Source of the DNA: Aeromicrobium sp. A1-2
GTDB lineage: Bacteria; Actinomycetota; Actinomycetes; Propionibacteriales; Nocardioidaceae
DNA: 64,000 bases
NCBI RefSeq assembly: GCF_003443875.1
Contig: NZ_CP027482.1
Span: forward strand, 1,426,001-1,490,000
Direction: 5' to 3'
The notes under the pieces: model-generated
Databases searched by the model: none
The model's input: the letters and a program-made list of their open reading frames with translations, nothing else
What the model was told of the DNA's origin: nothing
Part shown: piece after piece, positions 2,074 through 52,569 of the stretch
Layout: every line of letters starts with the position of its first letter
How positions within the stretch are numbered: the stretch's first letter is position 1
Made by a program: the position numbers and the translations under genes

Positions 2074-3044
2074 GCCGGTCCAGGCAGCAGGTCATCCGTA
2101 TGCTCGCGCTCGTGCCCTACCTCCAGGGCAATGACGGTGTCCCGGTCAACGAGGTTGCCGCCGAGTTCGGGGTCACGCCGAAGGTCATCCGAGACGATCT
2201 CCGTCTGCTGATGTACACCGGCACGGGCGAGTACGCCGGCGAGCTCATCGACTTCGACCTCACGGCCCTCGAGGTCGACGGAATCGTGCACATCCGCGAC
2301 GCGGAGTTCATGACGCGGCCGCTGCGGATCAGCACCCGTGAGGGTGTTGCCCTGATCGTGGCGCTGCGCACGCTGCGCGCCTCGGCGAGTGGTTCGGAGC
2401 TCACGGTCGTCGACAGCGCGTTGGCCAAGCTCGAGAGCGCGGTCGGCGACACCGTCTCTGCGCCCGTCGACGTCCTGATGGATGAGGTCGATCCCACGAT
2501 CCACTCCGCGATCGTGCACGCTCTGGCCCAGGGCAAGCGTCTTCAGCTGACGTACGCGACGGTCTCCCGCGACGAGCAGTCCGATCGCGCGGTCGACCCG
2601 CGCAGGCTGTTTACCGAGCAGGGCAGGCTTTACCTCGAGGCGTGGTGCCTCAAGGCCGAGGACCTCAGGTTCTTCCGCCTCGACCGGGTCGTCGACGCCC
2701 AGCTCACCGATGTCGACGCTCAGGACCACGACGTCAACGAGCGGGACATGTCCGACGGCATCTTCACAGTGGGGGAGGCGACCCCGTACGCGCTGGTCGA
2801 CCTGCACCCGCGGGCGCACTGGCTGACCGAGTACTACCAGGTCGAGCTCCTCGAGCAGAGCGCCGCGGGCATCTGGCGGGCCAAGCTGTTCGGCGCGGAC
2901 TGGGCGTGGCTTCGTCGTCTGGTGCTGCGCAATGCCGGATCTGTCACGGTCATCGAGCCCGACACTCTTCGCGCTCACGTGGTTGACGACGCTCGTCTAG
3001 CCTTGCAGGCGTACGATGAACGTGAATCGTCCACCAAGGAGTAG
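2070..3044 (+). CDS. pafC: PafC, WYL-domain transcriptional activator subunit
   Basis: A 324-residue paralogue of PafB with the same layout: winged helix in the first 60 residues (EVAAEFGVTPKVIRDDLRLL), WYL domain with GRLYLEAWCLKAEDLRFFRLDRV, then a C-terminal extension. It starts inside the last codon of pafB (ATGA overlap). With PafB it forms the DNA-damage-responsive activator PafBC. The stop at 3042-3044 is 2 bases before tatA, so pafB-pafC-tatA-tatC look like one transcript. Confidence 0.92.
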   Translation: MSRSRQQVIRMLALVPYLQGNDGVPVNEVAAEFGVTPKVIRDDLRLLMYTGTGEYAGELIDFDLTALEVDGIVHIRDAEFMTRPLRISTREGVALIVALRTLRASASGSELTVVDSALAKLESAVGDTVSAPVDVLMDEVDPTIHSAIVHALAQGKRLQLTYATVSRDEQSDRAVDPRRLFTEQGRLYLEAWCLKAEDLRFFRLDRVVDAQLTDVDAQDHDVNERDMSDGIFTVGEATPYALVDLHPRAHWLTEYYQVELLEQSAAGIWRAKLFGADWAWLRRLVLRNAGSVTVIEPDTLRAHVVDDARLALQAYDERESSTKE

Positions 3045-10435: not shown

Positions 10436-11515
10436 GTGAGCAGATGGCGCAAGGCACAGGAACTGGCCGCTTCGCGGGGCATCGATGCCCTGCTCGTCAC
10501 GCCGGGAGCGGATCTCCGCTACCTCACGGGGTATGTCGCGCTCCCGCTGGAGCGATTGACCTGCTTGGTGCTGCCCGCCCAGGGCGACCCGACGCTCGTC
10601 GTGCCTGCGCTGGAAAGATCTGCGGCGGTTGCCTCGGGCGTTGACGTGCAGATCGAGTCGTGGGGCGAGCTGGACGACCCGTTCGCGCTCGTGGCCTCGC
10701 TCGTCGGAGACGCCGCGACCGTCGGTGTCGACGACCACATGTGGGCCTCACGCGTCTTTGCGCTCCGATCTGCCCTCCCGCAGGCGCGGCAGGTGCTGGG
10801 CGGCGAGCTGGTGCAGGAGCTTCGCATCCGCAAGGAGGCCGACGAGGTCGAGGCGCTCCGGGAGGCAGGCCTCGCGATCGACCGGGTGCACTCCCGCATG
10901 GGGGAGTGGCTGCGGCACGGCCGCACCGAGCGCGAGGTGGGCGCGGACATCGCCCGCGCGATCATCGACGAAGGTCACGTGACGGTCGACTTCGTCATTG
11001 TGGGCTCGGGACCCAATGGCGCGTCGCCGCACCACGAGTTGTCCGACCGAGTCATCCAGGAGGGTGACCCCGTCGTCGTCGACATCGGCGGCACGACGTC
11101 GGCCGGCTACTGCTCGGACTCCACCCGCAACTATCTCGCCGGCGGCACGGTGCCCGGTCTGTACGCCGAGGCGTACGCGGTCCTGGAGGCGGCCCAGCAG
11201 GCGCAACGCGAGCACGCGCGGCCCGGGGTGACGGCAGCATCCGTCGACGCCGTGGGGCGTGGCATCATCGGCGACGCGGGCTACGGCGACCTGTTCATCC
11301 ACCGTACGGGGCACGGCATCGGTCAGGAGACCCACGAGGAGCCCTATATCGTCGAGGGCAGCGACCTGGTGCTCGAAGAAGGCATGGCCTTCTCGATCGA
11401 GCCCGGCATCTACTTCGAGGGCCAGTTCGGCGCCCGCATCGAGGACATCGCGGTCTGCACCGCGGACGGGCTCGAGGTGCTCAACAACACCCCCCGCCAG
11501 CTCTCCGTCCTGTGA
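10436..11515 (+). CDS. M24-family Xaa-Pro dipeptidase/aminopeptidase
   Basis: A 359-residue cytoplasmic metallopeptidase with a creatinase-like N-terminal domain (about residues 1-130) and a pita-bread M24 catalytic domain. Metal ligands are visible in VVVDIGGTTSAGYCSDSTRN, the HRTGHGIGQETHE segment, SIEPGIYF and GARIEDIA. It cleaves peptides next to proline. M. tuberculosis has the homologous pepE (Rv2089c) in the same neighbourhood. GTG 10436 is chosen because of the -10 element 6 bases upstream. It overlaps lnt by 4 bases (GTGA). Confidence 0.88.
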   Translation: MSRWRKAQELAASRGIDALLVTPGADLRYLTGYVALPLERLTCLVLPAQGDPTLVVPALERSAAVASGVDVQIESWGELDDPFALVASLVGDAATVGVDDHMWASRVFALRSALPQARQVLGGELVQELRIRKEADEVEALREAGLAIDRVHSRMGEWLRHGRTEREVGADIARAIIDEGHVTVDFVIVGSGPNGASPHHELSDRVIQEGDPVVVDIGGTTSAGYCSDSTRNYLAGGTVPGLYAEAYAVLEAAQQAQREHARPGVTAASVDAVGRGIIGDAGYGDLFIHRTGHGIGQETHEEPYIVEGSDLVLEEGMAFSIEPGIYFEGQFGARIEDIAVCTADGLEVLNNTPRQLSVL

Positions 11516-13005
11516 CACGGGGCATCGGTGGGCGGACTGCCTGGCCGGCAGCCACCGCACTGGGAGTGCTGTCGTCGCTGGCCTTTGACCCGGTCGGACT
11601 GCCGTACGCGATGGTCGTCTCGGTCGCCGGACTGATCTGGCTGGCCCACGGGCTGCGGGACGCCCGCAAGCGGACCGTCGCTGTGACCGGGCTGCTCTAC
11701 GGCCTGTCGTTCATGGGTCCGCTGATCTGGTGGATGAACGCGGTCAGCCACGGCGCCTACATCGGCCTGGTCATCGCCGAGTCGCTGTTCTTCGTGCCGA
11801 TCATGCTGGCCCTTCGGGCTTCATCCCGGTTGCGGTGGTGGCCTGTGTGGGGCGCCGGAGTCTGGGTGCTCGGTGAGTGGGCCCGCGGACGGTTCCCGTT
11901 CACCGGGTTGCCCTGGGGCCGGCTGGCGCACACCTCGATCGATACTCCGTTCTCGGCGTACGTACGTCTCGTGGCGATGCCGGGCACCAGCGCCGTCCTG
12001 TTCCTCGTGGCCAGCCTGCTGGTGGTGCTGATCACCTCATCGACCTGGCGGCCACGAGGAGTGGCACTGGCCGGGATCGTGGCCGTTGCGGGCCTTGGTT
12101 CGGTCCTGCCGACCGGCATAGCCGGAGCGGACGGCACGAGGCAGGTCGCCCTTGTGCAGGGAGATGTGCCTGGCGTGTTCCTGACCTGGCCGCTCGGCGA
12201 GATATTCAAGCTGCATGCCGCCGAGACCGAGCGGCTTGCCGACCGGATCGACGCAGGCGAGGTCCCGCGGCCCGACATGGTCCTGTGGCCGGAGAACTCG
12301 ACCGACACCGATCCGTCCTTCGACCTGCCGGTTCGACAGCGCATCATGCAGCTGTCCGGGCGCATCGGCGCGCCGATCCTGGTCGGTGGAATCCTGGACG
12401 GGCCCACCGTCACGACGGCGTACAACGCCGGACAGGTTTGGACCGCGGCTGGCCCGGGGGAGCGATACGTCAAGCTCAAGCCCGTGCCGTTCGGCGAGTA
12501 CGTCCCGTTCCGCGACGAAGCATCCGTCGTCGTGGACCGGCTGGCCCGCGACATCCCGCGCGACATGCTGGCCGGAGATGAGCCGGGGGCTCTCCAGATC
12601 GGGGACACCCTGATCGGAGACACGATCTGTTACGACATCGCGTACGACTCCGTGATCCGGCGCGCGGTAGACGGCGGTGCACAGATGATCGTCGTGCAGA
12701 CCAGCAACGCGGCCTTCACGGGCACTTCCCAGCCGTCACAGCAGTGGGACATCTCCCGGCTCCGGGCGATCGAGACCGGTCGGTGGGTCGTGGTCCCGTC
12801 GACCAACGGCATCACCGGCGTCGTCGACCCGAGTGGGCGCAGCGTGGAGCAGGCGCCGCTGCACGAACCGGCGACGGTCAACGCGCAGGTCACTCTGGCG
12901 TCGGGCACGACCCCGGCGCTCGAGATCGGGGTTCCGCTGGAGTACGCCCTGGTGATCCTCGGTCTGGGAGCATGGTGGCTCGGCACTCGACGGAAGGACC
13001 GCTGA
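11512..13005 (+). CDS. lnt: apolipoprotein N-acyltransferase Lnt
   Basis: A 497-residue membrane enzyme that adds the third acyl chain to lipoproteins. The first 200 residues hold six to seven hydrophobic helices. The nitrilase-like domain follows, with the catalytic triad visible as Glu in LWPENSTD, Lys in KLKPVPFGEYVPFR and Cys in DTICYDIAYD. A final helix is near residue 480. In M. tuberculosis the same domain is fused to the mannosyltransferase as Ppm1; here the two are separate genes 4 bases apart. The GTG start overlaps the peptidase stop. Several lipoproteins in this window are potential substrates. Confidence 0.93.
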   Translation: MTRGIGGRTAWPAATALGVLSSLAFDPVGLPYAMVVSVAGLIWLAHGLRDARKRTVAVTGLLYGLSFMGPLIWWMNAVSHGAYIGLVIAESLFFVPIMLALRASSRLRWWPVWGAGVWVLGEWARGRFPFTGLPWGRLAHTSIDTPFSAYVRLVAMPGTSAVLFLVASLLVVLITSSTWRPRGVALAGIVAVAGLGSVLPTGIAGADGTRQVALVQGDVPGVFLTWPLGEIFKLHAAETERLADRIDAGEVPRPDMVLWPENSTDTDPSFDLPVRQRIMQLSGRIGAPILVGGILDGPTVTTAYNAGQVWTAAGPGERYVKLKPVPFGEYVPFRDEASVVVDRLARDIPRDMLAGDEPGALQIGDTLIGDTICYDIAYDSVIRRAVDGGAQMIVVQTSNAAFTGTSQPSQQWDISRLRAIETGRWVVVPSTNGITGVVDPSGRSVEQAPLHEPATVNAQVTLASGTTPALEIGVPLEYALVILGLGAWWLGTRRKDR

Positions 13006-15644: not shown

Positions 15645-16435
15645 GCTGGTTGCCTCCAGGAGCCACGGGCCACGAGCACGTCCTTGAGCAGGTCCGTGCG
15701 GTCGGTGATGATGCCGTCGACCCCGAGGTCGAGGAGCTCGTGCATCTGATCGGTCTCGTCGATCGTCCAGACGTGGACCTGCAGGCCCAGACCGTGCGCC
15801 TTGCTGATGAAGTGCGGCGTCACAACCCGCAGACGCCCGTGCACGGCAGGAACCTGCAGGCACACCGGGCCCGGCCCGCGTCGTAGGCGGAGCAGCGCGG
15901 ACGGAAGTAGCTTGACCAGCGCGACCTCGAGGCTCGAGGCGGACGTCGCGACGCCTGGTAGTCGTCGTCGTGCCCGACGCAGTCGGCGGTGCGAGAAGGA
16001 CGCCAGCAGAGTCCGGGCCGTGGCGTCGTGGGTCTCGACGACACGGCACGTCGGTTCGAGCGAGTCGTCGGACTTGATGTCGATGTTGAGTCGGGCGTCC
16101 GGGAACCTGTCGTACAGCGTGCCGAGCCGGGCGAACGGCTCACGCTGGTCGAGGCGCTGCTGGTCGAGCGACTCAGCGGTCGACAGGGCAACAACCTCCG
16201 CGGAGCCGGTCAAGCGCTCCAGCGACTCGTCATGGATCGCATAGACCACGCCATCGGACGAGGTCCGTACGTCGGTCTCGAAGTAGCGGAAGCCCATCGC
16301 GTAGGCGTCAGCGAAGGCCGCGACGGAGTTCTCGATACCGAGATTGCCGGCCGTCCCCGAGCCGCCACGGTGCGCAAGCGCGACCGGGGGAGGGGTGTCC
16401 AGGTAGGGGTGCCGTATGCCGTCAAGTCCAGCCAC
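15641..16435 (-). CDS. glycerophosphodiester phosphodiesterase
   Basis: A 264-residue GDPD-family enzyme that cleaves glycerophosphodiesters to glycerol-3-phosphate and an alcohol. The metal and catalytic residues are visible: AHRGG, the ENS of GIENSVAAF, FETDVRTSSDG and HDESLER near the N-terminus, and HVWTID with GVDGIITDRTD towards the C-terminus. There is no signal peptide, so it acts in the cytoplasm. The GTG start at 16435 is preceded by a TAGGGT -10 element 6 bases away. It is translationally coupled to the UMF1 transporter. Confidence 0.88.
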   Translation of the reverse strand: MAGLDGIRHPYLDTPPPVALAHRGGSGTAGNLGIENSVAAFADAYAMGFRYFETDVRTSSDGVVYAIHDESLERLTGSAEVVALSTAESLDQQRLDQREPFARLGTLYDRFPDARLNIDIKSDDSLEPTCRVVETHDATARTLLASFSHRRLRRARRRLPGVATSASSLEVALVKLLPSALLRLRRGPGPVCLQVPAVHGRLRVVTPHFISKAHGLGLQVHVWTIDETDQMHELLDLGVDGIITDRTDLLKDVLVARGSWRQPA

Positions 16436-16752: not shown

Positions 16753-16852
16753 GATTTCCTCCCCCGAGGGCACCGCCGCCAATCGGCGATGTGAATCACG
16801 ATGCAACCACCGCGCCAGACAGGCTGTCAACTGTCGACGGTCAGCTTGTACG

Positions 16853-18464: not shown

Positions 18465-19109
18465 TCAGACCGTCATGCGATCGCCCTGGCCGAGCTTTCG
18501 GGCGTCCTCGACATCGCCGAAGTTGCCGACGTGCTGCCAGTAGATGCCGTACGCGGCCTCGGCGATCGTGCAGTCGTGGATCGGGAAGACCGTCGTCGGC
18601 GCGACCCGGCGGACGAAGTCGACCGTCTCGCTGATCTTGCCCCACGGCGCGGCAAGGGGGAGTGCGAGCACCTGCACGCCGTCGGGGACGTACTCATAGG
18701 TGTCGCCGGGGTGGAACAGCACGGGCTCACCCTCCGCGTGCAACGTCACACCGACGTTGGCGACCCGCGGCATCTCGGGCACGATGACGGCATGCTGCGC
18801 ACCGACGCCTCGCACCGTGAGGCCGCTGACGATGGTTTCGAGACCGTCGGAGTTCATGGTCCACGCGCCGAAGTCGACCAGCGAAGCGGTCTCGGGATCG
18901 CACAGCAGCAGTGCGTCGGGGTTGTGCTCCACGAGCCGCGTGGCCCGCACTCGATCGAGGTGGTCGGGGTGCTGATGGGTCACGATGATCGCGTCCAGCT
19001 CGACGAGCTCGAACGTCGCATCGAGGCTGAAGGTGCCGGGATCGATCAGGATCCGGGTGTCGGCCGCTTCGACGAGGATCGCGGCGTGACCGAAACGGGT
19101 GATCTGCAT
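18465..19109 (-). CDS. MBL-fold metal-dependent hydrolase (UlaG-like)
   Basis: A 214-residue metallo-beta-lactamase-fold protein. The metal-binding motif THQHPDHLD (HxHxDH) is near residue 60, FHPGDTYEY gives the next ligands and FPIHDCTIAEAAY the last His. It resembles the small UlaG-type hydrolases whose substrates are usually unknown. ATG 19109 is preferred over ATG 19118 because GGGAG lies at ribosome-site distance from it. No signal peptide, so cytoplasmic. Confidence 0.85.
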   Translation of the reverse strand: MQITRFGHAAILVEAADTRILIDPGTFSLDATFELVELDAIIVTHQHPDHLDRVRATRLVEHNPDALLLCDPETASLVDFGAWTMNSDGLETIVSGLTVRGVGAQHAVIVPEMPRVANVGVTLHAEGEPVLFHPGDTYEYVPDGVQVLALPLAAPWGKISETVDFVRRVAPTTVFPIHDCTIAEAAYGIYWQHVGNFGDVEDARKLGQGDRMTV

Positions 19110-20359: not shown

Positions 20360-21574
20360 TCAGGCGCCAGGCAGCTTCGCGACATCGGGTTCGTCGGTCC
20401 CGAAGTAGCGGAACATCACAGTGTCCCGCGCGCTTGCCGCGCTGCGGTGCAGGCTCCGCTCACCCCATGCCGTTCGACCCAAAACGTGGTGACGCACGAC
20501 GTTGAGCGGGACGATGCCCAGCGCGGCCCAAGGGAGCCGAACCGGCAGGCCCAGGTCACGCATGCCCTGCTTGCCGAGGAACAGCCGCAGCATGCTGAGC
20601 AGTCGCGCGCGGGTCCACGCACGACCGAGCCGGGGGAGCCGGGCGAAGTGGAGCGTGCTCTGGGCATCCAGGATGCCTCGGGCCAGCTCGGCGCCGGCCG
20701 GCGTGACATCGGCCTGCGCCAGGAGGACGTGATAGCTGAACCGGTGCTGCTCGCGCTCGGTGTCAAACAGCCAGTCCTCGTCGACGCCCATCAGCCATCC
20801 GACGTACTTCCACAGGTGCATGACCGCACGGGAGTCATCACGTGTCACCCGCACACCGAGGGCGCGGACGCCGAGCAGGAGTGCGCCGTTGAACAGGCCC
20901 AGGGTCGCGGCCTGGTCGGAGCGGTTGATCGGCAGGCCCCACGTCTGCGTGTCCCACCTGTCCTTGGCCTCGAAGTGGTGGTTGACCATCGCGTGCATCA
21001 GCCGAACGTGCACCGTGAGCGCGAAGGCCTCGCCGCCACGGCGCATCGAGTCGTGCTCGGAGACTGCGACGCCCCACTTCTGGGTCTCGCCGAGCCGGCG
21101 CATCGTGCTGTTGCCGGCCAGCGCTCCGGTCGCGATCAGCAAGTCGCTGGGGCCCCCGAATCGGTAGCCGCCGAGCAGCGACAGCTGGAGCAGGACGTCG
21201 GCGGCGTTCTTGCCGTAGCGGCGGTACGCCCTGGCTCCCCGGTTCACCAGGTCGAAGTCGACCCAGTCCGGCACGGCGTCGACCACCGCGAAGAAGTCAC
21301 GCAGCGCTGGGGGAGCGCCCCCGACGGAGTCGATGCCACCCGCCAGCGCCTGCTGGAACTGACGCATCGTGGGGCTGTTGCCGTCCTTGGCGCGCATCGC
21401 CTGTACCAGCGCGGCACCCACCTCGTCACGCTGCATGAATCGGCGGCCGATCTGGTCGAGCAGGTCGTCGTCCACGGCTCCCACACGGCCGACGACCCTG
21501 AGGACCCGGCCGATCTTGGCGCCGCGCTCCTCACCGGAGCGGAAACGAGTGGGTGGTTGCAGGTCGATTGTCAC
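20360..21574 (-). CDS. MpaB/DUF2236-family oxygenase-like protein
   Basis: A 404-residue helical protein of the oxygenase MpaB (DUF2236, latex-clearing-protein-like) family, many members of which bind haem b. The segment VRLMHAMVNHHFE in the middle and KYVGWLMGVDEDWLFDT towards the C-terminus match the family's His-containing core. The GTG start at 21574 gives the shortest frame clear of the divergent tetR regulatory region. A CACTCT element lies 6 bases upstream of it. Divergent from a TetR regulator with a palindrome between the genes, so probably its target. Substrate unknown. Confidence 0.75.
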   Translation of the reverse strand: MTIDLQPPTRFRSGEERGAKIGRVLRVVGRVGAVDDDLLDQIGRRFMQRDEVGAALVQAMRAKDGNSPTMRQFQQALAGGIDSVGGAPPALRDFFAVVDAVPDWVDFDLVNRGARAYRRYGKNAADVLLQLSLLGGYRFGGPSDLLIATGALAGNSTMRRLGETQKWGVAVSEHDSMRRGGEAFALTVHVRLMHAMVNHHFEAKDRWDTQTWGLPINRSDQAATLGLFNGALLLGVRALGVRVTRDDSRAVMHLWKYVGWLMGVDEDWLFDTEREQHRFSYHVLLAQADVTPAGAELARGILDAQSTLHFARLPRLGRAWTRARLLSMLRLFLGKQGMRDLGLPVRLPWAALGIVPLNVVRHHVLGRTAWGERSLHRSAASARDTVMFRYFGTDEPDVAKLPGA

Positions 21575-22290: not shown

Positions 22291-22944
22291 TCAGGCAGGC
22301 GCGGGCGCGGTGACGCGCGGTTCGAGCTGCGGCGCAGCCGAGGCGAACCGGCCCCGTTGCCACATGCCGTGCACCACGAACGCCGCGACGATCGTCCCGA
22401 TCGTGCCGAGTGCGAGGTCGCCCAGGGTGTCGGTGTAGGCACCTCGACGCTCCGAGGACTTGCTGATGAAGGCGAAGTACTCGGCCATCTCCCAGCTGAC
22501 GGCGGCCGTGACACCGAAGGCCAGCGCACGCTCGAGCGTGGCGGAGAGCGTCGCGCTGCGGTGCAGGGTCAGGAGGATCACACCCGCGGTGAGCAGGCCG
22601 GTGTTCATGAAGTGCATCCAGTCGTCGAACCAGGAGATCGTGTCGTACAGGTTCATCCGGTTGCCGAGGGTGTCGGTGAAGCAGGTGACTGTCACGAGGA
22701 GGTCGGCGACCCACGGGAACGACGCGCGATCGCGCCAGAACGTGTACCAGAGCGCCGGAATCGTGAACGCCAGCAGGGGATAGGTGACGGCACGCAGCCC
22801 GGCAGCCTTCTCCTTCATGTTCCCCAGATCAGGGAACAGCAGCGCCGTCACCAGCAGCAGGATCAGCAAGGCTTTGGCGCTCAGGTCGAGGCTACGAACC
22901 ACGGGGGGAGCGACGTGACGTGTCGCCACCTCCGAGTCAGTCAT
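22291..22944 (-). CDS. DUF2238-like integral membrane protein
   Basis: A 217-residue protein with about six hydrophobic helices. The conserved-looking segment DTLGNRMNLYDTISWFDDWMH and a later RRGAYTDTLGDLALG resemble the DUF2238/YjdF-type family, whose function is unknown. The repeated DTLG flanking two membrane segments suggests a two-fold arrangement around polar residues in the membrane. The ATG at 22944 has TACCGT 6 bases upstream. Converges with tetR. Confidence 0.65.
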   Translation of the reverse strand: MTDSEVATRHVAPPVVRSLDLSAKALLILLLVTALLFPDLGNMKEKAAGLRAVTYPLLAFTIPALWYTFWRDRASFPWVADLLVTVTCFTDTLGNRMNLYDTISWFDDWMHFMNTGLLTAGVILLTLHRSATLSATLERALAFGVTAAVSWEMAEYFAFISKSSERRGAYTDTLGDLALGTIGTIVAAFVVHGMWQRGRFASAAPQLEPRVTAPAPA

Positions 22945-23486: not shown

Positions 23487-24083
23487 CTAGCGAGCGGGGC
23501 TGGTGATGATGTAGCGGTCGTCCTGGATCGATCGTCCCCAGTACACCGGGTCGGCGAGCCGGGTGAGGTCCGCGGTGCGTCCAGTAGCCCCGACCAGCGA
23601 GACGGACTGGTCGGAGGACAGGCCGGCATCGTTGGACCACCGGCCCTCCACGAGCAGCATGATCCCGCCGGGCTTCAGCAGGCCGACCCATCTGGTCAAC
23701 GCGATCGACGGGTCGGGCATGGCCCACAGCACGTGGCGACAGAGCACCACGTCGTACGCCCCGGCAGCGAGCGGTGGCTGGTACGCGTCACCGAGGACGA
23801 ATCGGACATCGGGCCTGTCACCCAGCTTTGCCTCCGCTCGTTCGAGCATCCTGGGGGAGAAGTCGACACCGTCGACCTGATAGCCCTCGTCGGCGAGCAG
23901 CAACGACAACGTGCCGGTCCCACAGCCCAGATCGGCGACCGCGGCCGGGGCTTGGGGGAGCCGGTCCAGCAACAACTGCCGCCAGGCCTGGCGCACGGCC
24001 GGATCGAGCAACCCGTGGTCGGCAGGCTCGTCGAAGGCGTCGGCCTCGGCATCCCAGGTCCTGATCTCGGCATCAGTTGGCAT
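23487..24083 (-). CDS. class I SAM-dependent methyltransferase
   Basis: A 198-residue Rossmann-fold methyltransferase. The SAM-binding motif I is VADLGCGTGTLSLLLA at about residue 48, motif II DGVDFSP at about 72, and LLKPGGIMLLVEGRW is the motif after the catalytic region. The substrate cannot be predicted. ATG 24083 has TACGTT 7 bases upstream, indicating a leaderless message. Confidence 0.85.
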   Translation of the reverse strand: MPTDAEIRTWDAEADAFDEPADHGLLDPAVRQAWRQLLLDRLPQAPAAVADLGCGTGTLSLLLADEGYQVDGVDFSPRMLERAEAKLGDRPDVRFVLGDAYQPPLAAGAYDVVLCRHVLWAMPDPSIALTRWVGLLKPGGIMLLVEGRWSNDAGLSSDQSVSLVGATGRTADLTRLADPVYWGRSIQDDRYIITSPAR

Positions 24084-24090
24084 GCACTCG

Positions 24091-24096
24091 AACGTA
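24091..24096 (-). promoter_or_regulatory. -10 element TACGTT, leaderless promoter of the methyltransferase gene
   Basis: On the minus strand TACGTT ends 7 bases before the ATG at 24083. Confidence 0.38.
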
Positions 24097-24116
24097 CGTG
24101 TCCGGTCTGCGACGGT

Positions 24117-24487
24117 TCAACCCTCGTGATCGGGTCGGACGAGCTCGGCCATCGCTGCCTCCACGGCCTCGGCGGCAGTGCCAGAATCAACTGAGGCGGT
24201 GTCGATCACGAGGCGGCCGCGGCTCCACGGTTCGTATTCGCGAGCACTGATCTCGTCCCAGGTCGGGCGCGACCCGCCAGGTAGCCGGGCGGCGACTCCC
24301 AACCGTTCGTGGTCTCGTGGACGCCTTCTGACGCAGCAATCGCCGCCTCGAGCGTGTCCACCCGGACGTATGCGGCTCGTCGGTGCGACGCCACGAGTCG
24401 GGAAACTGTCGTGTTGTCGGTCGCCGGCAATCCGCCGATGGAGATGAGTACCGGTCGCGGGCAGGTCGATGTGGCAGGTTCGTCCAT
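24117..24487 (-). pseudogene. decayed P-loop kinase (AAA/adenylylsulfate-kinase-like) with internal deletion
   Basis: Two pieces of one family survive in different frames. The N-terminal piece (24487 down to about 24270) reads ISIGGLPATDNTTVSRLVA, where family members have a P-loop of the form GLPGTGKTT, so the catalytic Lys is lost; it continues YVRVDTLEAAIA as in relatives. The C-terminal piece, in the next frame, reads RPTWDEISAREYEPW and LVIDTA, the family's tail. About 70-80 residues expected between them are missing and the junction near 24270 is out of frame. I conclude it is dead. It lies 80 bases from the putative dif site. Confidence 0.7.
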
Positions 24488-24567
24488 GCCGAAACACTAC
24501 GGCGCCGATGAACCCGTACAACTAGGTGTTTCAGCCCCGTTGCCTCCGCTTTCCGGCTCACCGCTGA

Positions 24568-24595
24568 TTGTCCGATAATGCACATTATGTCAACT
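24568..24595. other. putative dif site (XerC/XerD chromosome-dimer resolution site)
   Basis: A 28-bp site with the dif layout: left arm TTGTCCGATAA (24568-24578), 6-base centre at 24579-24584, right arm TTATGTCAACT (24585-24595). The inner parts of the arms form the inverted repeat ATAATG/CATTAT. The right arm matches 9 of 11 bases of the E. coli XerD arm, and the left arm ends in the conserved ATAA. It is intergenic. Flanking gene blocks are those that bracket the terminus side of the M. tuberculosis chromosome, and transcription polarity changes across it. Confidence 0.8.
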
Positions 24596-24704
24596 CGCAT
24601 GGATATTCACGCTCTCGCTTCATCCGAGCGAAGATCGAGCCGCCCCCGCGGAGATCTTCGGCATGGCCTGAATTGCGCCGCTCCGATAGCGTTCGAGACA
24701 TGAC

Positions 24705-25358
24705 ATGTGCGCAGAGACCACCGACACCACGCGGGCCCAGCCGATGACCGGCGACATGACTGGCAGCGCTGACTGGAACGTGTTCTACGCCGAGCGATCG
24801 ACGATCTGGAGCGGTGAGCCCAACGCCCAATTGGTGGCGGAAGCCACGGGTCTCTCCCCTGGGTCCGCGCTCGATGTCGGCTGCGGCGAGGGCGCCGACG
24901 CGGTGTGGTTGGCGCAGCACGGTTGGGACGTCACGGCCGTCGATGTCTCCGACGTCGCACTCAAGCGTGCGCGTGAGCATGCCGCCACACTCGGGTGCGA
25001 GATCGAATTCGTGCACCTCGATGTGGTCGCCACTCCCCCTCAGCCCAAAACGTATGACTTGGTCTCGGCCCAGTTCTTCCAGCTCGAGGATCCGCCGCGC
25101 AGCCAGGCGATGCGCTCGCTCGGCGCCTCGGTCGCTCTCGGAGGCCACCTCCTGGTCGTCGGCCACTATCCGGCTGGCCACGCCGGGGCGAACCACCCGG
25201 AGCGACTGTTCACCCTCGACGAGATCATCGGGCTGTTCTCCCCCGACGACTGGGCGGTCGTGACATCGGAGACTCGTGAACGCACTGCGATGCATCACGG
25301 TGAGATAACCGACCTGGTCGACGGGGTCGTGCTGCTCCGGCGCACTGGCCAGGCTTGA
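24705..25358 (+). CDS. class I SAM-dependent methyltransferase (TehB/thiopurine-like)
   Basis: A 217-residue methyltransferase. WNVFYAERSTIWSGEPNAQLV, then motif I ALDVGCGEGADAVWLAQHGWDVTAVD, resembles the TehB/thiopurine methyltransferase-like group that modifies small molecules. The first gene right of the putative dif site. The start is uncertain: ATG 24705 is used, with TAGCGT at 24687-24692 as a plausible -10 element giving a very short leader; internal ATGs at codons 14 and 18 are alternatives. Confidence 0.82.
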   Translation: MCAETTDTTRAQPMTGDMTGSADWNVFYAERSTIWSGEPNAQLVAEATGLSPGSALDVGCGEGADAVWLAQHGWDVTAVDVSDVALKRAREHAATLGCEIEFVHLDVVATPPQPKTYDLVSAQFFQLEDPPRSQAMRSLGASVALGGHLLVVGHYPAGHAGANHPERLFTLDEIIGLFSPDDWAVVTSETRERTAMHHGEITDLVDGVVLLRRTGQA

Positions 25359-26980: not shown

Positions 26981-28159
26981 GTGACACCGATGACGCGGAT
27001 ACCCGCCTGGCTGCGGGTGGCCGCGGCGCTGTTCGCGGTCGGATGGGGCGCCAACCAGTTCGCCGCGATGCTCCTGGTCTACCGGCAGGAGGACGGAGCC
27101 TCGAGCGAGGCCGTCACAGCACTCTTCGGGGCGTATGCCCTCGGACTGATCCCCGCGTTGCTGATCGTCGCCCCTATCTCGGACCGGATCGGCCGTCGCC
27201 GTGTCATGCGCCCCGTGCTCGTGCTGTCGGTCATCGCCACGGTCATCCTGCTCATCGGTGGAGACAACATCGCTGTGCTGTTGCTCGGCCGCTTGGCGGC
27301 AGGCATCGCCTCGGGTGCGGCGTTCGCCCCGGGCACGGCGTGGGTCAAGGAACTCTCCGGTGACGGTCCGGCCGGCACCGGGGCACGCCGCGCGACCTGG
27401 GCGCTGTCGGCGGGGTTCGGCTCCGGACCCCTGGTTGCCGGCGTGATCGCGCAATGGCTCCCCGGTCCGACGGTCCTGCCGTACGTCCCGCACCTCGTGC
27501 TGATGATCGGCGTCATCGCGATCGCGTGGAACGCGCCCGAGCCGTCGGTCCCCCGGAGCAAGGACGAGCCACGTCGACGCTCGGACGCCTGGCAGGCGCT
27601 GCGGTCGCGCCGGTTCCTGCTCGGCATCGCCCTGACTGCTCCGTGGGTGTTCGGCACCGCCTCGATCAGTTTCGCCACGCTGCCGAACTTCGTGGACATC
27701 GGTTTCGCCCCGATCGCCGTGACCGGGGCGCTGACGGGGCTGACGCTGTGGACCGGCGTCGCGGTGCAGCCACTCGGTCGGCGCTTGCACGACCCGCGCC
27801 TGATCATCCTGACCGGCCTGGCCGCAGCGACCGGCGGACTGGCGATGGGTGCGCTGCTCGCGACGTCCGGCATCGCGTGGCTCGTCGTGCTCGCCGCGAT
27901 CCTGCTCGGTGCGGCGTACGGCCTGATCCTGGTCGGTGGCCTGACCACCGTCGAGGGACTGGCCCGGCCGGACGACCTCGGCACTCTCAACGCAGTTTTC
28001 TACAGCCTGACCTACGTCGGGTTCGCCGCTCCCCTGCTCAGCACACTGGCGCTCAAGGCACTGTCACCGGCGGGGTTGATGCTGGTCGGTATCGGTGCCA
28101 TCGCGCTCACCGTGCCGCTGGTCCTGCTGTCGCAGCGTCGGGAGCCGATCAAGGTCTGA
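26981..28159 (+). CDS. MFS transporter
   Basis: A 392-residue major facilitator with about 12 helices. The loop 2-3 signature is ISDRIGRRRVMRPVL, the usual G-x-x-x-D-R-x-G-R-R motif of drug/sugar-type MFS proteins. Motif C-like glycines are in the fifth helix. No substrate can be assigned. It converges with the esterase gene with only 8 bases between the stops. Confidence 0.86.
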   Translation: MTPMTRIPAWLRVAAALFAVGWGANQFAAMLLVYRQEDGASSEAVTALFGAYALGLIPALLIVAPISDRIGRRRVMRPVLVLSVIATVILLIGGDNIAVLLLGRLAAGIASGAAFAPGTAWVKELSGDGPAGTGARRATWALSAGFGSGPLVAGVIAQWLPGPTVLPYVPHLVLMIGVIAIAWNAPEPSVPRSKDEPRRRSDAWQALRSRRFLLGIALTAPWVFGTASISFATLPNFVDIGFAPIAVTGALTGLTLWTGVAVQPLGRRLHDPRLIILTGLAAATGGLAMGALLATSGIAWLVVLAAILLGAAYGLILVGGLTTVEGLARPDDLGTLNAVFYSLTYVGFAAPLLSTLALKALSPAGLMLVGIGAIALTVPLVLLSQRREPIKV

Positions 28160-28848: not shown

Positions 28849-29468
28849 TCGAAAGGCGTGGGGTCGCCTGCCCCGACGCGGAGGACCTCGGCCGACCCGT
28901 CGGTGAAGTCGATCACCGTCGTCGGCTCTGCGAGGACCTCGGCGCCGGACTCGATCACCACGTCGATCTGGCCGTCGAGCGCCTCGGCGATCTCCCATGC
29001 CGTCGACATCGGCTCGACGGTGCCGGGAAGGATCAGCGTGGTCGAGAGAATCGGCTCCCCCAGGGCGGCCAGCAGGGCTCCGACAATCTTGCTGTCGGGG
29101 ATCCGTACGCCAACGGTCTTCTTCTTGGGATGGAGCAGTCGGCGCGGGACCTCACGCGTGGCGGGAAGGATGAACGTGTAGGGACCAGGAGTCGCGGACT
29201 TCACCGCCCGAAAGATCGAGTTGTCGACATGCACGAACTGACCCAGCTGGGCGAAGTCGCGGCACACCAGCGTGAAGTGGTGCTTGTCGTCGAGCTGCCG
29301 GATCGTGCGGATGCGATCGAGCGCTTCCTTGTTGCCGAGCTGGGCACCGAGCGCATAGCCGGAGTCGGTCGGATAGGCGATGAGCCCCCCGTCCTGAATC
29401 ACCGCGGCAGCTTGGTCGACGGATCGCTGTTGAGGGTTGTCGGGGTGAATCTCGATGTATCGGACCAT
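28845..29468 (-). CDS. L-threonylcarbamoyladenylate synthase-like protein (YciO/YrdC family)
   Basis: A 207-residue Sua5/YciO/YrdC-domain protein. IAYPTDSGYALG near residue 30 and KKKTVGVRIPDSKI are family signatures for ATP and RNA-side binding; HFTLVCRDFAQL follows the typical YciO order. YrdC members make threonylcarbamoyl-AMP for the t6A37 tRNA modification, but the YciO branch is less well defined. ATG 29468 is supported by TATCCT 6 bases upstream; codons further upstream are not used. Confidence 0.82.
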   Translation of the reverse strand: MVRYIEIHPDNPQQRSVDQAAAVIQDGGLIAYPTDSGYALGAQLGNKEALDRIRTIRQLDDKHHFTLVCRDFAQLGQFVHVDNSIFRAVKSATPGPYTFILPATREVPRRLLHPKKKTVGVRIPDSKIVGALLAALGEPILSTTLILPGTVEPMSTAWEIAEALDGQIDVVIESGAEVLAEPTTVIDFTDGSAEVLRVGAGDPTPFE

Positions 29469-29886: not shown

Positions 29887-30678
29887 ATGACCGAACGGGC
29901 ACTGTCACTTGCCGAACGCCGGGCGCAGCAGATCGCGCACGGTGATGAACGCGCCGCTCACCTCGCGGCCCGCAAACAACCAGCCCGACGCTCAGCAGAC
30001 GATCTTCAGCGCATCGCGGAAGCAGCCGAGGAGCGGTTCGTCGGCTCCGACACGACCGAGGTGCTCGCCTGGGTCGCTGAGGAGTTCGGCCACCGCACAG
30101 CCGTGGCCTGCTCGATGGCCGATGCCGTCCTCCCCCATGTCGTCGCCACCCACCTGCCGTGGGTCGACACACTGTTCCTCGAGACGGGCTACCACTTCGC
30201 CGAGACGATCGGCACCCGCGACGCCGTCGAGTCGACCATGCGACTCACGATCGTCGACGTCAAGCCAGCGCGCAGTGTCGGTGAGCAGGATGCCGAGTTC
30301 GGCCGCCGGCTCTACGAGCGGGACCCGGGCCTGTGCTGCGAGATGCGTAAGGTCCAGCCGCTGCACGACTCGCTGCAGGGCTATGAGGCCTGGATCACCG
30401 GCGTACGTCGTGACGAGGGGCCGACCCGCACAGGCTCGCCATTCGTCACGTGGGACGCCAAGAACCGACTCGTCAAGATCAACCCGCTCGCTGCCTGGAC
30501 CTTCGACCAGCTGCTTGCCTACGCCGACGAGCACGACGTGATCGTCAACCCCCTGGTCAACGATGGCTATCCGTCGATCGGGTGCTCCACCTGCACCCGT
30601 CGCGTCGCGCCCGGTGAAGATCCGCGCGCCGGTCGGTGGGCCGGGCTCGACAAGACCGAGTGCGGGCTGCACTCATGA
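29887..30678 (+). CDS. cysH: APS/PAPS reductase CysH
   Basis: A 263-residue assimilatory adenylylsulfate reductase producing sulfite. Four cluster-binding cysteines are present: CC in DPGLCCEMRKVQPL, and CxxC in SIGCSTCTR. A further Cys in the C-terminal KTECGLH is the catalytic one. The cluster cysteines indicate the 4Fe-4S type that uses APS. ATG 29887 is preferred over GTG 29878 because GAGGTGAG lies at ribosome-site distance. A TACCGT at 29836-29841 may be the operon's -10 element. First gene of cysH-cysD-cysN-cysG. Confidence 0.92.
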   Translation: MTERALSLAERRAQQIAHGDERAAHLAARKQPARRSADDLQRIAEAAEERFVGSDTTEVLAWVAEEFGHRTAVACSMADAVLPHVVATHLPWVDTLFLETGYHFAETIGTRDAVESTMRLTIVDVKPARSVGEQDAEFGRRLYERDPGLCCEMRKVQPLHDSLQGYEAWITGVRRDEGPTRTGSPFVTWDAKNRLVKINPLAAWTFDQLLAYADEHDVIVNPLVNDGYPSIGCSTCTRRVAPGEDPRAGRWAGLDKTECGLHS

Positions 30679-30727: not shown

Positions 30728-31639
30728 ATGACCCAGACTGCCGAACGCCGTCTCACCCAGCTGCAGTGGCTGGAGTCCGAAGCTATCCACATCATTCGGG
30801 AGGTCGCCGCCGAGTTCGACAAGCCCGTGCTCTTGTTCTCAGGCGGCAAGGACTCAGTCGTCATGCTGCACCTGGCGACCAAGGCTTTCTGGCCCTCCCC
30901 CGTGCCGTTCCCCGTCATGCACGTCGACACGGGCCACAACTTCCCCGAGGTGCTGGCCTTCCGGGACGCCACGGTCGAGCGTCTCGGGCTGCGGCTCGAA
31001 GTCGCCAGCGTGCAGGACTACATCGACGACGCGCGCTTGCGTGAGCGCAGCGACGGGACCCGCAACCAGCTGCAGACCCAACCGCTGCTCGACGGCATCG
31101 CGAAGGGCCGGTTCGATGCAGTATTTGGCGGCGGACGCCGCGACGAGGAGAAGGCGCGGGCCAAGGAGCGGGTGTTCTCGCTACGTGACGAATTCGGACA
31201 GTGGGACCCACGCAACCAGCGGCCCGAGCTGTGGAACCTTTACAACGGTCTGCACCGGCCCGGCGAGCACGTCCGGGTCTTCCCGCTGAGCAACTGGACC
31301 GAGCTCGACGTCTGGCAGTACATCGGTGCCGAGGGCATCGCCCTGCCCGAGCTGTACTACGCCCACCAGCGTGAGGTGTTCGAGCGCGACGGAATGCTCG
31401 TGGCGGTCAGCGACGTGTCGCCGCCACGCGAGGGCGAGGCCGTCCGGACGCGCCAGGTCCGCTATCGGACCGTCGGTGACATGTCGTGCACCGGCGCCGT
31501 GGAGAGCGACGCTGTCACGGTCGAGGACGTCATCGTCGAGGTCGCCGCCACACGGATCACCGAGCGTGGGGCGACTCGTGCCGATGATCGGGCCTCCGAG
31601 GCCGCCATGGAGGATCGCAAGAAGGAAGGCTACTTCTGA
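30728..31639 (+). CDS. cysD: sulfate adenylyltransferase small subunit CysD
   Basis: A 303-residue ATP sulfurylase catalytic subunit. The PP-loop LLFSGGKDSVVMLHL at about residue 42 binds ATP; GGGRRDEEKARAKERVFS and FPLSNWTELDVWQYI are hallmark CysD segments. With CysN it makes APS from sulfate and ATP. ATG 30728 is used; the frame upstream runs into cysH. Its TGA shares a base with the cysN ATG (TGATG). Confidence 0.94.
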   Translation: MTQTAERRLTQLQWLESEAIHIIREVAAEFDKPVLLFSGGKDSVVMLHLATKAFWPSPVPFPVMHVDTGHNFPEVLAFRDATVERLGLRLEVASVQDYIDDARLRERSDGTRNQLQTQPLLDGIAKGRFDAVFGGGRRDEEKARAKERVFSLRDEFGQWDPRNQRPELWNLYNGLHRPGEHVRVFPLSNWTELDVWQYIGAEGIALPELYYAHQREVFERDGMLVAVSDVSPPREGEAVRTRQVRYRTVGDMSCTGAVESDAVTVEDVIVEVAATRITERGATRADDRASEAAMEDRKKEGYF

Positions 31640-32940: not shown

Positions 32941-34139
32941 GCAGCGAGCAGAGCTTCCCGCTCACCCTGCGTGTGGCCGGCCGTCGGGTCGTCGTGGTCG
33001 GCGGTGGGCACGTCGCAACCCGGCGCACGCTGTCGCTGCTGGATGCCGGTGCGCTCGTCGTCGTCATCTCCCCCACGGTCGCTAGCTCCTTGGCGTCGTC
33101 GATCGGCCGCGGAGACGTCACGTGGATCGCGAGGACGTACCGCTCCGGTGACCTCGACGGTGCGTGGCTCGTGCAGACCGCGACGGCCGACGCGCTCGTC
33201 GACGAACGGGTTGCGGCGGACGCGGAGGCGAGCCAGATCTGGTGCCTCAAGGGCGGCGATCCGGCTGGTGCCACGGCATGGGCTCCGGCCGTGGCCCGTG
33301 TCGATGACGTGACGGTTGCAGTCAGCGGGGGCGGCGACGCAGGGCGAGCAGCGGCCCTCCGCGATGCAGTCGCGACGGCGCTGCAGTCCGGCGACCTGCC
33401 ACTTCGGCATCGCACCCACCGCCCGGACGGATTCGTGGCGCTGGTCGGTGGCGGGCCCGGCGACCCGGGACTCATCACGACCCGCGGCAGACGGCTGCTC
33501 GCGGAGGCCGACGTCGTCGTCATTGACAGGCTCGCTCCACATGGCGTGCTGGCCGAGCTGGCACCCGACGTCGAGGTCATCGACGTCGGCAAGATGCCCG
33601 ATCACCACCCGATCCCCCAGCACGAGATCAACGCGATCCTGATCGACCGGGCCAGGCAGGGCAAGATCGTGGTCCGGCTCAAGGGCGGCGACCCGTACGT
33701 CTTCGGACGCGGCGGCGAGGAGCTCATCGCCTGCCGCGACGCCGGTATCCCCGTCGAGGTCGTGCCGGGTGTGACCAGCGCCATCGGTGTCGCTGCGGCG
33801 GCCGGCATCCCGGTGACGCACCGCGGTGTTGCGCGCGGATTCAGCGTCGTCACGGGTCACGAGTCGCTGGCGGCGCTGCCGCACGACCGGGCGCACACCA
33901 TCGTGATGCTGATGGGGGTCAAACGGCTTGCCGAGACCGCGGGCGAGCTCATCGCGGCCGGCCATGACCCTGAGACCCCATCTGCTCTGGTCGAGAATGG
34001 ATGCAGCGTTGACCAGCGCGTCACGGTCGGCACGCTGTCGACGATCGCTGACCGCGCGGCGGCTGTTGGCGCGAAGTCACCTGCCATCACCGTGATCGGC
34101 GATGTCGTGACCCTTGCGCCGAGCTGGCCCCCGACGTAG
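32937..34139 (+). CDS. cysG: sirohaem synthase CysG-like: precorrin-2 dehydrogenase plus uroporphyrinogen-III methyltransferase
   Basis: A 400-residue bifunctional protein. Residues 1-155 form a CysG N-terminal domain with the NAD-binding VVVVGGGHVATRRTLSLLDAG. From about 160 the SUMT domain has LVGGGPGDPGLIT, RLKGGDPYVFGRGGEE and VPGVTSA, all classic. It makes the sirohaem needed by sulfite reductase, whose gene is not in this window. The central helical part of the N-terminal domain is divergent, so ferrochelatase activity is uncertain. Overlaps cysN by ATGA. Confidence 0.9.
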   Translation: MSSEQSFPLTLRVAGRRVVVVGGGHVATRRTLSLLDAGALVVVISPTVASSLASSIGRGDVTWIARTYRSGDLDGAWLVQTATADALVDERVAADAEASQIWCLKGGDPAGATAWAPAVARVDDVTVAVSGGGDAGRAAALRDAVATALQSGDLPLRHRTHRPDGFVALVGGGPGDPGLITTRGRRLLAEADVVVIDRLAPHGVLAELAPDVEVIDVGKMPDHHPIPQHEINAILIDRARQGKIVVRLKGGDPYVFGRGGEELIACRDAGIPVEVVPGVTSAIGVAAAAGIPVTHRGVARGFSVVTGHESLAALPHDRAHTIVMLMGVKRLAETAGELIAAGHDPETPSALVENGCSVDQRVTVGTLSTIADRAAAVGAKSPAITVIGDVVTLAPSWPPT

Positions 34140-34368
34140 TCGACCCGGGTCGGCCGCAGTCGGTACGTCAGGGGAGGACGTCGACGACCAGAGGGAGTCA
34201 GGCCGTCGACGCATCCGCTGCGCCCCGAGTAACAGACACGTTGTCCATTCTCTAGTTCGGACAGGCCGTCCGCTATCCCCCATCCGGCCCATGGCGATGG
34301 CTCGTTCGGGCCATGTCGAGCGCTCCGCGGGGTGGTGCGCCTGGGCGTCGGAGCACCACAATGGGCAC

Positions 34369-35217: not shown

Positions 35218-35678
35218 ACCGCCGAGGGCTCCTGCGTCCGAAGCCAGGCGTTGAGTCGCCTCTCGCCCTGCCGCATCACGGTGTGGTGACCCACCACGAA
35301 CACAGGCCGCAGCAACCAGCCGGTCCAACGCATCCACCGACGATCGGTCGCCACCCGCCAGTCGATCTCCATGACCGAGCGGTCCGGTCCGAGCTCGGTG
35401 AACGTGACCTCTCCCCTGCCGCGCAGGTCCCCCTCCGACCCGAACGCGAGGCGGCAAGGCCGCTCGATCTCCAGCTCGACCAGCCGGAACCGGACGGAGT
35501 ACCCCAGGCCGCTGGACGCCCGCAGGTCGAGGCTGTCGCCGTCATAGCCGGTGACCTGCACCGCTGGCCACCACGGCAGCGGGTCCGATGCCGCCAGCAG
35601 CCGCTCCAGCACGTCCCACAGCGCGTCACGGCTGTGCTCGACGGTCCAGCGCGAGACCAGCACGTATTGCGAATTCAT
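35187..35678 (-). CDS. SRPBCC-family protein
   Basis: A 163-residue START/Bet v1-like protein. The N-terminus YVLVSRWTVEHSRDALWDVLERL and the mid-segment SVMEIDWRVATDRRWMRWTG with long beta strands fit the polyketide-cyclase/SRPBCC fold, which holds hydrophobic ligands. No catalytic residues can be singled out. The last 31 bases overlap the convergent lipoprotein gene. Confidence 0.75.
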   Translation of the reverse strand: MNSQYVLVSRWTVEHSRDALWDVLERLLAASDPLPWWPAVQVTGYDGDSLDLRASSGLGYSVRFRLVELEIERPCRLAFGSEGDLRGRGEVTFTELGPDRSVMEIDWRVATDRRWMRWTGWLLRPVFVVGHHTVMRQGERRLNAWLRTQEPSAVQSRPQRDRK

Positions 35679-37967: not shown

Positions 37968-38668
37968 CCACGACGGACCTGCACTCACTTATCGCACCGT
38001 ACGCACTCGACGCGCTCGATGCTGACGAGCGCGCACGTTTCGAGTCTCACCTCGAGCAGTGCGCGACATGTCGCTCCGAGCTCGCCGGGTTCCAGGAGAC
38101 GACGGCACTGCTCGGCGAGAGCGTCAGCCACGCGCCGCCTGCCGCCCTGCGTGAACGGCTGCTCGCCGAGATCTCGGGCACGCGGCAGGAGCGTCCCGTT
38201 GTCACGTCGCTCGCTGAGCGACGCGGAGTCCGCCGCACGCTCCCCCGCCTCGCGATGGCGGCTGCGTTCCTGGTCGGCACGGTCGGTGTCGGCGGCTACG
38301 CCGTCGAGCGCAACCAGGCCAACGATGCCCGCGACGAGTACGCAGCGGTCTCCTCTGTGCTTGCGGCCGCCGATGCCAACACCTCAGCGAAGGATTTCCC
38401 GGGCGGCGGCAACGTCCGGATGATCTCCTCGGCCGAGCAGGACACCGCGGTGATCTTCGCCCACGACCTGCCCAGCCCCGGCGCGGACAAGGTCTACCAG
38501 GTGTGGATGGTCGATGCATCCGGCGCCACGTCACAGGGCACGTTCGTCACCGACGGGCAGATGATCATGGAAGGCGTGTCCGGCGCCAAGACTGTCGCCG
38601 TGACGGTCGAGCCCAAGGGCGGCTCGAAGCAGCCCACGACTGAGCCGGTAGCGACGATCCCGGTCTGA
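37964..38668 (+). CDS. rskA: anti-sigma-K factor RskA
   Basis: A 234-residue membrane anti-sigma factor. The cytoplasmic N-terminal zinc-type anti-sigma domain has HLEQCATCRSELAGF (H-x3-C-x2-C). One transmembrane helix follows at about residues 90-110 (MAAAFLVGTVGVGGYAV). The extracellular RskA domain contains LPSPGADKVYQVWMVDASGA. It holds SigK inactive until cleaved by membrane proteolysis. Coupled to sigK by an ATGA overlap. Confidence 0.93.
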   Translation: MTTTDLHSLIAPYALDALDADERARFESHLEQCATCRSELAGFQETTALLGESVSHAPPAALRERLLAEISGTRQERPVVTSLAERRGVRRTLPRLAMAAAFLVGTVGVGGYAVERNQANDARDEYAAVSSVLAAADANTSAKDFPGGGNVRMISSAEQDTAVIFAHDLPSPGADKVYQVWMVDASGATSQGTFVTDGQMIMEGVSGAKTVAVTVEPKGGSKQPTTEPVATIPV

Positions 38669-43763: not shown

Positions 43764-44483
43764 CTAGCCCCGCAGCCGGCTTCTGACGAGGACGGCCTGG
43801 AGCCGGACCGAGAGTGCGGCCAGCGCGGACACAGTGTGCTCGGCGGCATCCTTGTCGAGCCGGCGCGCCCGAGGCGTCACGACCTGCTCGAACAGCGCGA
43901 TCTCACGATCGGCCGCGGCACGGAACATCCGCAGGTGTCGCGGCTCGAGACCCAGCTCGGCGAACTGCCCGACCAGCGCGGCCACCTGGAGCGCCTCGCC
44001 GTCGTAGTACGTCTGGGACGGGCGGCGCACGATCAGCCCGTGCTCCTCGATCGCGTCGAGCGTCGCCGAGTCGATGCCGGCCGACTCCAACAGGTCCCCG
44101 CGGGAGAGCCTGGCGTTGCTGCTGGGCTCGGCGAAGGTCTCGGCGGTCGGCAGACCGTCCGCAGCCAGACTCAGGTGTGGCACCCGCGTCGTGCTCCCCT
44201 GCTGGGTGTCGGGGACCACGCCACGGTCCATGTCGTCCAGGACCTGGCGGATGTGATTGAGCGGCCAGAACTTGTCACGCTGCTGACGCAGGATGAATCG
44301 CAGTCGCTCGACGTCGCCGAAGGAGAACTTCCGATATCCCGAGGAGGTGCGTTCCGGCTCGAGGAGCCCCTCGGACTCCAGGTAGCGGATCTTGGTGATC
44401 GTCAAGTCCGGGAACTCCGGCAGGAGCTCGTCGAGCACCTTGCCGATGCCGAGCCGGGAAAGCTCCGGCAGAGGTTCGGTCAC
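43764..44483 (-). CDS. ftsR: MerR-like regulator FtsR
   Basis: A 239-residue MerR-type protein: LGIGKVLDELLPEFPDLTITKIRYLESEGLLEPERTSSGYRKF is the winged helix, followed by a second HTH-like C-terminal domain. Corynebacterial FtsR, orthologue of Rv1828, activates ftsZ; the sequence and its place between garA and the DUF151 gene identify it. The GTG start has GGAGG upstream. A 25-base gap separates it from garA. Confidence 0.88.
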   Translation of the reverse strand: MTEPLPELSRLGIGKVLDELLPEFPDLTITKIRYLESEGLLEPERTSSGYRKFSFGDVERLRFILRQQRDKFWPLNHIRQVLDDMDRGVVPDTQQGSTTRVPHLSLAADGLPTAETFAEPSSNARLSRGDLLESAGIDSATLDAIEEHGLIVRRPSQTYYDGEALQVAALVGQFAELGLEPRHLRMFRAAADREIALFEQVVTPRARRLDKDAAEHTVSALAALSVRLQAVLVRSRLRG

Positions 44484-52478: not shown

Positions 52479-52569
52479 CCGAGGCGTCTAAGGAGTCTGC
52501 CCGGCGCGTTCGCGGTCGAGCGCCTCCCCCGTGGCGGCGTCCGACCCGGGGTTGGGCACGGTGGGCTTG

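Follow-up and report, generated by a model that had tools for sequence, protein, structure and literature searches.

The DNA analysed here (hereafter the window) is a stretch of 64,000 bases, 1426001–1490000 of the one-contig, 3,446,585-bp genome of Aeromicrobium sp. A1-2. Two methyltransferase-domain genes, at 23487–24083 and 24705–25358, diverge from an inter-gene stretch that holds the 28 bases TTGTCCGATAATGCACATTATGTCAACT (24568–24595), with the letters given in a preliminary description of this DNA. The features of the locus are:

24084..24704, unstranded: inter-gene stretch holding dif, between divergent methyltransferase-domain genes (rough gene calls and Pfam)
24568..24578, + strand: dif XerC-side arm, TTGTCCGATAA; 7 of 11 bases as in Frankia alni dif, the three outer bases variable in the genus
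24579..24584, + strand: dif central region, TGCACA; all six bases (6 of 6) shared with F. alni dif
24585..24595, + strand: dif XerD-side arm, TTATGTCAACT; 10 of 11 bases shared with F. alni dif and 9 of 11 with E. coli dif

On the minus strand, two overlapping frames occupy 24117–24600, one of them running across dif; neither had a Pfam match, and they are perhaps gene remains.

The 28 bases are a chromosomal dif site, as had been proposed. They have the features of the dif class (28 bp in all, with arms of 11 bp separated by 6 bp and ATAA/TTAT at the inner ends), so that the 11-6-11 layout claimed for 24568–24595 is borne out by the sequence, and a recount of the XerD-side arm gave the same 9 of 11 agreements with E. 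coli. E. coli dif shares the layout and 18 of 28 bases overall, but its XerC arm agrees in only 5 of 11. Alignment with an actinobacterial dif, which the preliminary description had suggested, supported the assignment: 23 of 28 bases are shared with the proposed dif of F. alni, the seed for actinobacterial dif prediction (Kono 2011, PMC3025954). Both sites are 28 bp long with an identical six-base centre, occur once per chromosome and lie near the skew turn; the Aeromicrobium site differs in arm bases only. The runner-up place in the window agreed with F. alni dif in 18 of 28 bases. A search of the 3.45-Mb one-contig genome for other copies, also suggested earlier, found a single 28-mer (up to three mismatches) and a single match to the dif core common to F. 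alni (up to two mismatches), with no second example of either. The site is thus an ordinary one, a further actinobacterial dif with nothing new in itself; Table 1 of Kono 2011 (PMC3025954) gives predictions for 66 of 66 single-chromosome actinobacteria.

The site is conserved in the genus, where 41 of 49 genomes, including this one, carry exactly one copy with up to three mismatches and ten other genomes carry the identical 28-mer. Five of the eight genomes without such a copy were in the core-search set, and all five have the core. Of 293 genomes in the order, 265 had the core at up to two mismatches, as did 98 of 396 genomes spread over the phylum, a low figure that is no surprise because the pattern is that of the site's own class. 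Eleven genomes of one Streptomyces-like genus (6–10 Mb) in the 396-genome set had no core match; the lack of a match is as expected of linear chromosomes. Across 37 distinct 88-bp rows, information content averaged 1.78 bits over the 28 dif columns and 0.25 in each 30-column flank, a test that is partly circular because rows were chosen by a pattern over positions 5–23, and 29 loci also by total mismatches. Positions 1–3, 26 and 27 varied among these rows and position 28 was invariant, a genome of the genus set outside the rows (G040) differing there.

Three observations on related sequences are recorded here. The first base of the centre, T in Aeromicrobium, was mostly C or G among the matches listed for genus g2 and for family f7, and the ACA before the XerD arm was kept in most order-level matches listed. 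Second, weaker dif-like sequences, with two mismatches to the core, lie on a 51-kb contig of G048 (L380) and a 77-kb contig of G012 (L381), plasmid-sized contigs on which they are possibly plasmid Xer resolution sites. A 6.6-kb contig listed as Stenotrophomonas maltophilia P13 (L249) bears an exact actinobacterial dif core and seven of seven converging GGGGGAG words, perhaps through contamination of that assembly.

Chromosomal position agreed with a terminus location. With dnaA (3,148,981–3,150,333, minus strand) as a proxy for oriC, dif lies 23.5 kb, or 0.68% of the circle, from the point opposite. Among 16 congeneric genomes (all 15 one-contig genomes and the chromosome contig of the two-contig G048, genomes of more contigs being left out), dif fell at 0.46–0.54 of the circle from dnaA in all 16, with a mean deviation of 1.8% and a largest of 4.2%. 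The orientation of dif relative to dnaA was the same in nine of these genomes and opposite in seven, as expected from repeated inversions across the terminus.

GC skew was sampled in 42 stretches (704 kb of 3.45 Mb, resolution about 40 kb; the 704-kb sample). Skew was positive in 20 of 21 stretches on one arm and 5 of 21 on the other, with arm means of +0.017 and −0.013. The cumulative extremum that the preliminary description had proposed to seek at dif was found there at this resolution: the maximum was the boundary at dif (score 3481), one of 41 boundaries offered since the window was split at dif, with boundaries about 25–50 kb to either side scoring nearly equally (3353 and 3401). Skew within the window failed to place the turn, cumulative values wandering between −0.20 and +0.38. 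The claim that the window spans the terminus stands as regards dif and the skew turn; replication termination itself has been argued to occur near dif rather than at it (Kono 2011, PMC3025954).

Two supporting arguments of the preliminary description fared less well. Gene strands were said to run along the converging forks. Rough calls in the window gave 13 plus- and 12 minus-strand genes (12.3 and 9.8 kb) left of dif and 18 and 25 (13.2 and 17.4 kb) to its right, and co-fork genes held 57% of called coding bases over 400 kb, a slight bias in the stated direction that leaves the argument overstated. The core gene blocks named on either side, which the preliminary description also places beside the terminus region of M. 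tuberculosis, were recovered in part: TatA/E, TatC and Lnt on the left and GcvP, FtsR, GcvH and ClsA on the right scored above the NCBIfam curated cut-offs, whereas the presumed PafB, PafC and RbpA on the left and 4 of 10 right-hand proteins had no or weak NCBIfam matches. A Hel308-like helicase, a 5'-3' exonuclease and OdhI matched below cut-off.

The terminus region is also marked by a polar word. Unsupervised ranking of 7-mers on the 704-kb sample placed GGGGGAG first, followed by the overlapping CGGGGGA. GGGGGAG pointed toward and away from dif 61 and 7 times on the left arm and 72 and 3 times on the right (133/10 in total). Within 200 kb of dif the split was 106/4 of 110 (400 kb, of which 168 kb had been in the discovery sample), and the single best split of orientations fell between −627 and +452 bp of dif. 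This convergence, with its flip within 1.1 kb, is the strongest support for reading 24568–24595 as dif. Density fell from 44 copies per 100 kb at less than 50 kb from dif to 22 at 50–200 kb; beyond 1.1 Mb it was 13, with a polarity of 32/7. Of the 34 RGGGGAG words in the window, 32 are directed toward dif:

2771..2777, + strand: GGGGGAG, toward dif
6291..6297, + strand: GGGGGAG, toward dif
10900..10906, + strand: GGGGGAG, toward dif
12456..12462, + strand: GGGGGAG, toward dif
16386..16392, + strand: GGGGGAG, toward dif
16759..16765, − strand: GGGGGAG, away from dif (exception)
18656..18662, + strand: GGGGGAG, toward dif
20632..20638, + strand: GGGGGAG, toward dif
21309..21315, + strand: GGGGGAG, toward dif
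22904..22910, + strand: GGGGGAG, toward dif
23853..23859, + strand: GGGGGAG, toward dif
23954..23960, + strand: GGGGGAG, toward dif; last left-hand site before dif
24854..24860, − strand: AGGGGAG, toward dif
25033..25039, − strand: GGGGGAG, toward dif; first right-hand GGGGGAG
25238..25244, − strand: GGGGGAG, toward dif
28029..28035, − strand: AGGGGAG, toward dif
29055..29061, − strand: GGGGGAG, toward dif
30130..30136, − strand: GGGGGAG, toward dif
30895..30901, − strand: GGGGGAG, toward dif
33068..33074, − strand: GGGGGAG, toward dif
34170..34176, + strand: AGGGGAG, away from dif (exception)
35411..35417, − strand: AGGGGAG, toward dif
38240..38246, − strand: GGGGGAG, toward dif
39670..39676, − strand: GGGGGAG, toward dif
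40450..40456, − strand: GGGGGAG, toward dif
41169..41175, − strand: GGGGGAG, toward dif
44194..44200, − strand: AGGGGAG, toward dif
46365..46371, − strand: GGGGGAG, toward dif
48356..48362, − strand: GGGGGAG, toward dif
49352..49358, − strand: GGGGGAG, toward dif
52524..52530, − strand: GGGGGAG, toward dif
55672..55678, − strand: GGGGGAG, toward dif
56057..56063, − strand: GGGGGAG, toward dif
63758..63764, − strand: AGGGGAG, toward dif

Gene direction does not explain the polarity of GGGGGAG, because the toward/away split was 42/1 in dif-ward genes, 36/2 in opposite genes and 28/1 elsewhere (400 kb, of which the rough caller covered 273 kb). Most of the 21 one-base variants were far less polar (CGGGGAG, for example, at 51/42), the exceptions being AGGGGAG (29/2), GGGGGAT (40/8) and GGGGGAC (32/7); the exact word is provisional because these three are skewed too. 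For the numbers of copies on the two strands, composition models expected 54.5 and 43.8 (order 1) or 23.3 and 12.1 (order 3) where 106 and 4 were observed, and an order-5 model, fitted to overlapping words, expected 85.1 and 7.5.

Known guide words were weakly or not polar in the 704-kb sample. The E. coli KOPS, GGGNAGGG, pointed toward dif 46 times and away 21 times, GAGAAGGG gave 14/7 and GAAGAAG 72/71. As a marker of dif, GGGNAGGG was rejected, its best switch (32 of 46) lying about 58 kb off, and so were the guide words of Bacillus subtilis and Lactococcus lactis. Weaker polar words also occurred in this sample, among them GGTGCTG (120/59 on the left arm, 119/64 on the right), GTTCAA (68/32 and 65/28) and CAAGGG (126/69 and 142/67).

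The polarity extends well beyond this chromosome, to loci that had no part in the discovery of the word. Twenty other genomes of the genus were examined over 10 kb to the left and right of dif, and all 251 of their GGGGGAG words pointed toward it; the dif-like sequences on the 51- and 77-kb contigs had three and two RGGGGAG copies in 10 kb, numbers that are too small for a verdict. A further 20 genomes of the order, hand-picked among the matches listed and none of them from family f2, gave 238/1. The phylum follow-up covered 40 of the 98 core-matched genomes: all 25 from the same class outside the order (163/3) and 15 of 71 from outside the class, belonging to nine families and with dif taken as matches within two mismatches, where polarity was lower (147/13). 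By batch, the follow-up counts were 196/14 and 114/2. One genus of family f7, which contributed 9 of the 25 class genomes, had fewer sites (28/0), and polarity was weakest in G603 of the same class (3/1) and in G358 (12/4), G594 (11/3) and G365 (13/3).

An exact search of a public genome collection for the 22-base core returned at least 120 stretches, at least four of which are from genomes of the earlier set; here 635 of 646 GGGGGAG words pointed toward dif and 11 away. Among the matches listed, 117 of 120 loci had more words toward dif, three were tied and none was reversed, and GGGGGAG was again the top 7-mer. The same-core stretches include Nocardia, Rhodococcus, Corynebacterium, Frankia, Geodermatophilus, Blastococcus, Microbacterium, Cryobacterium, Nocardiopsis, Jiangella, Amycolatopsis and an Acidimicrobiaceae MAG. 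The tiny P values of such counts assume an independence not given among related genomes; what carries weight is how many separate families are represented. A linear-chromosome control gave an ambiguous picture: over 80 kb of a Streptomyces-like genome that has no dif match, GGGGGAG ran 11 outward and 2 inward and AGGGGAG 1 and 5, so that part of the polarity may need no dif. FtsK works in Streptomyces too.

The genome encodes the proteins that such a system would employ. Five proteins matched the phage-integrase family, four of them above cut-off. One passes the NCBI XerD cut-off, and its gene adjoins a parA-like gene; another is closest to XerC, below the NCBI cut-off (300.3 versus 335.15 bits), and its gene adjoins a dprA-like gene (both neighbours identified by eye). 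An FtsK with a gamma domain is encoded as well (E 8e-23), and among solved structures the nearest to this domain are the FtsK gamma chains 2j5o and 2ve8/2ve9, at E 2e-6.

In E. coli and Vibrio cholerae, KOPS is GGGNAGGG, of which the three gamma modules read GGG, NA and GGG; the counterparts are SRS in B. subtilis and an A-rich heptamer in L. lactis, the latter consensus differing from that of E. coli (PMC5357621). More than 90% of KOPS near dif lie on the leading strand, and opposed KOPS converge on it from zones that extend about 10 kb to each side (PMC5357621). The pattern of RGGGGAG round dif fits that of KOPS: both words are polar, grow denser toward dif and flip at dif, in genomes that encode FtsK gamma. 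Read with N as G, GGGNAGGG opens with the six bases GGGGAG that RGGGGAG also contains, whereas RGGGGAG has R in front and needs no last GG, and GGGNAGGG itself is weakly polar in the Aeromicrobium genome. From the protein family and the shared GGGNAG core we infer that RGGGGAG is the actinobacterial counterpart of KOPS, with FtsK gamma as its reader.

The joint explanation, which we hold with high confidence, is that the site is the dif used by XerCD and FtsK and that RGGGGAG is the FtsK signpost. Under this proposal, XerC would bind the left arm and XerD the right. An odd number of crossovers between sister chromosomes would yield a dimer, whose two dif copies would be brought together at the septum. 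FtsK would find dif because its gamma domain would read RGGGGAG, mostly as GGGGGAG; with these words pointing dif-ward on both arms and denser near dif, the motor would pump toward dif from either side. FtsK-activated XerCD would then recombine the two copies within the six-base centre, separating the sisters.

Other readings of the site and of the word were weighed against this explanation. The arms of dif are symmetrical at only 5 of 11 positions, as might be seen in a chance near-palindrome; the conservation of the 28-mer in the genus disfavours that reading, as do 100 shuffled windows with zero matches at up to three mismatches, and its probability is negligible. Xer-using mobile elements employ dif-like sites, and the 51- and 77-kb contigs of two congeneric genomes carry weaker ones, so an attachment site or relic of such an element in place of the host dif has some precedent. 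The site is, however, single-copy in this genome and in each of the 41 matched genomes of the genus, is kept opposite dnaA and is the point on which word polarity converges, and we regard this origin as very improbable.

A real dif might also be accompanied by a word that is no FtsK signpost, RGGGGAG being then a strand-biased G-rich word arising from replication or repair; variants of this reading make it a Chi-like site, an AIMS that serves another function or the product of mutation bias. Leading strands are indeed G-richer in the 704-kb sample, other G-rich words are skewed as well, and the outward run of 11 of 13 GGGGGAG words in the Streptomyces-like genome occurs without a dif match. 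Yet a mean skew of only +0.017 and −0.013 stands against a polarity of 96–100% near dif in the genus, composition models of orders 1, 3 and 5 under-predict the strand split, and the polarity holds irrespective of gene direction, with a density rising toward dif and a flip within 1.1 kb of it. We therefore consider a G-rich word of this kind unlikely and prefer the reading of RGGGGAG as an FtsK signpost.

AIMS, which are strand-biased octamers rising toward the terminus (Hendrickson 2018, PMC5993296), have been worked out in hundreds of bacteria (Hendrickson and Lawrence 2006, as cited in PMC3269016), and in actinobacteria octamer strand bias correlates strongly with symmetric inversion bias (PMC5850607). 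In a comparison that rests on a sample of one genome and a procedure other than that of the AIMS authors, GGGGGAG shares with AIMS a strand bias, and its abundance and bias both rise toward the terminus (32/7 to 106/4). AIMS are lists of octamers per genome (S1 Dataset of PMC5993296), mostly of unknown function, as opposed to one shared seven-base word; GGGGGAG-type words may already stand in these lists. No actinobacterial KOPS or FtsK guide sequence was named in the literature searched, a search that mostly excluded subscription papers. Matches for GGGGGAG with FtsK were unrelated by title and abstract start, none of those listed for GGGGAG with KOPS concerned bacterial segregation by title, and Aeromicrobium with dif site had no match.

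The dif site is thus a routine annotation that fixes the terminus of the Aeromicrobium chromosome, and the polar word is the more important part, a concrete, testable candidate for the guide of actinobacterial FtsK. In high-GC genomes whose GC skew is weak, RGGGGAG also offers a simple means of locating dif and of orienting contigs from the terminus. It is probable, with some reserve, that RGGGGAG orients FtsK toward dif in most of Actinomycetota, both in this class and in several families beyond it. If so, this would be a guide code kept across the phylum yet unlike that of proteobacteria and Firmicutes.
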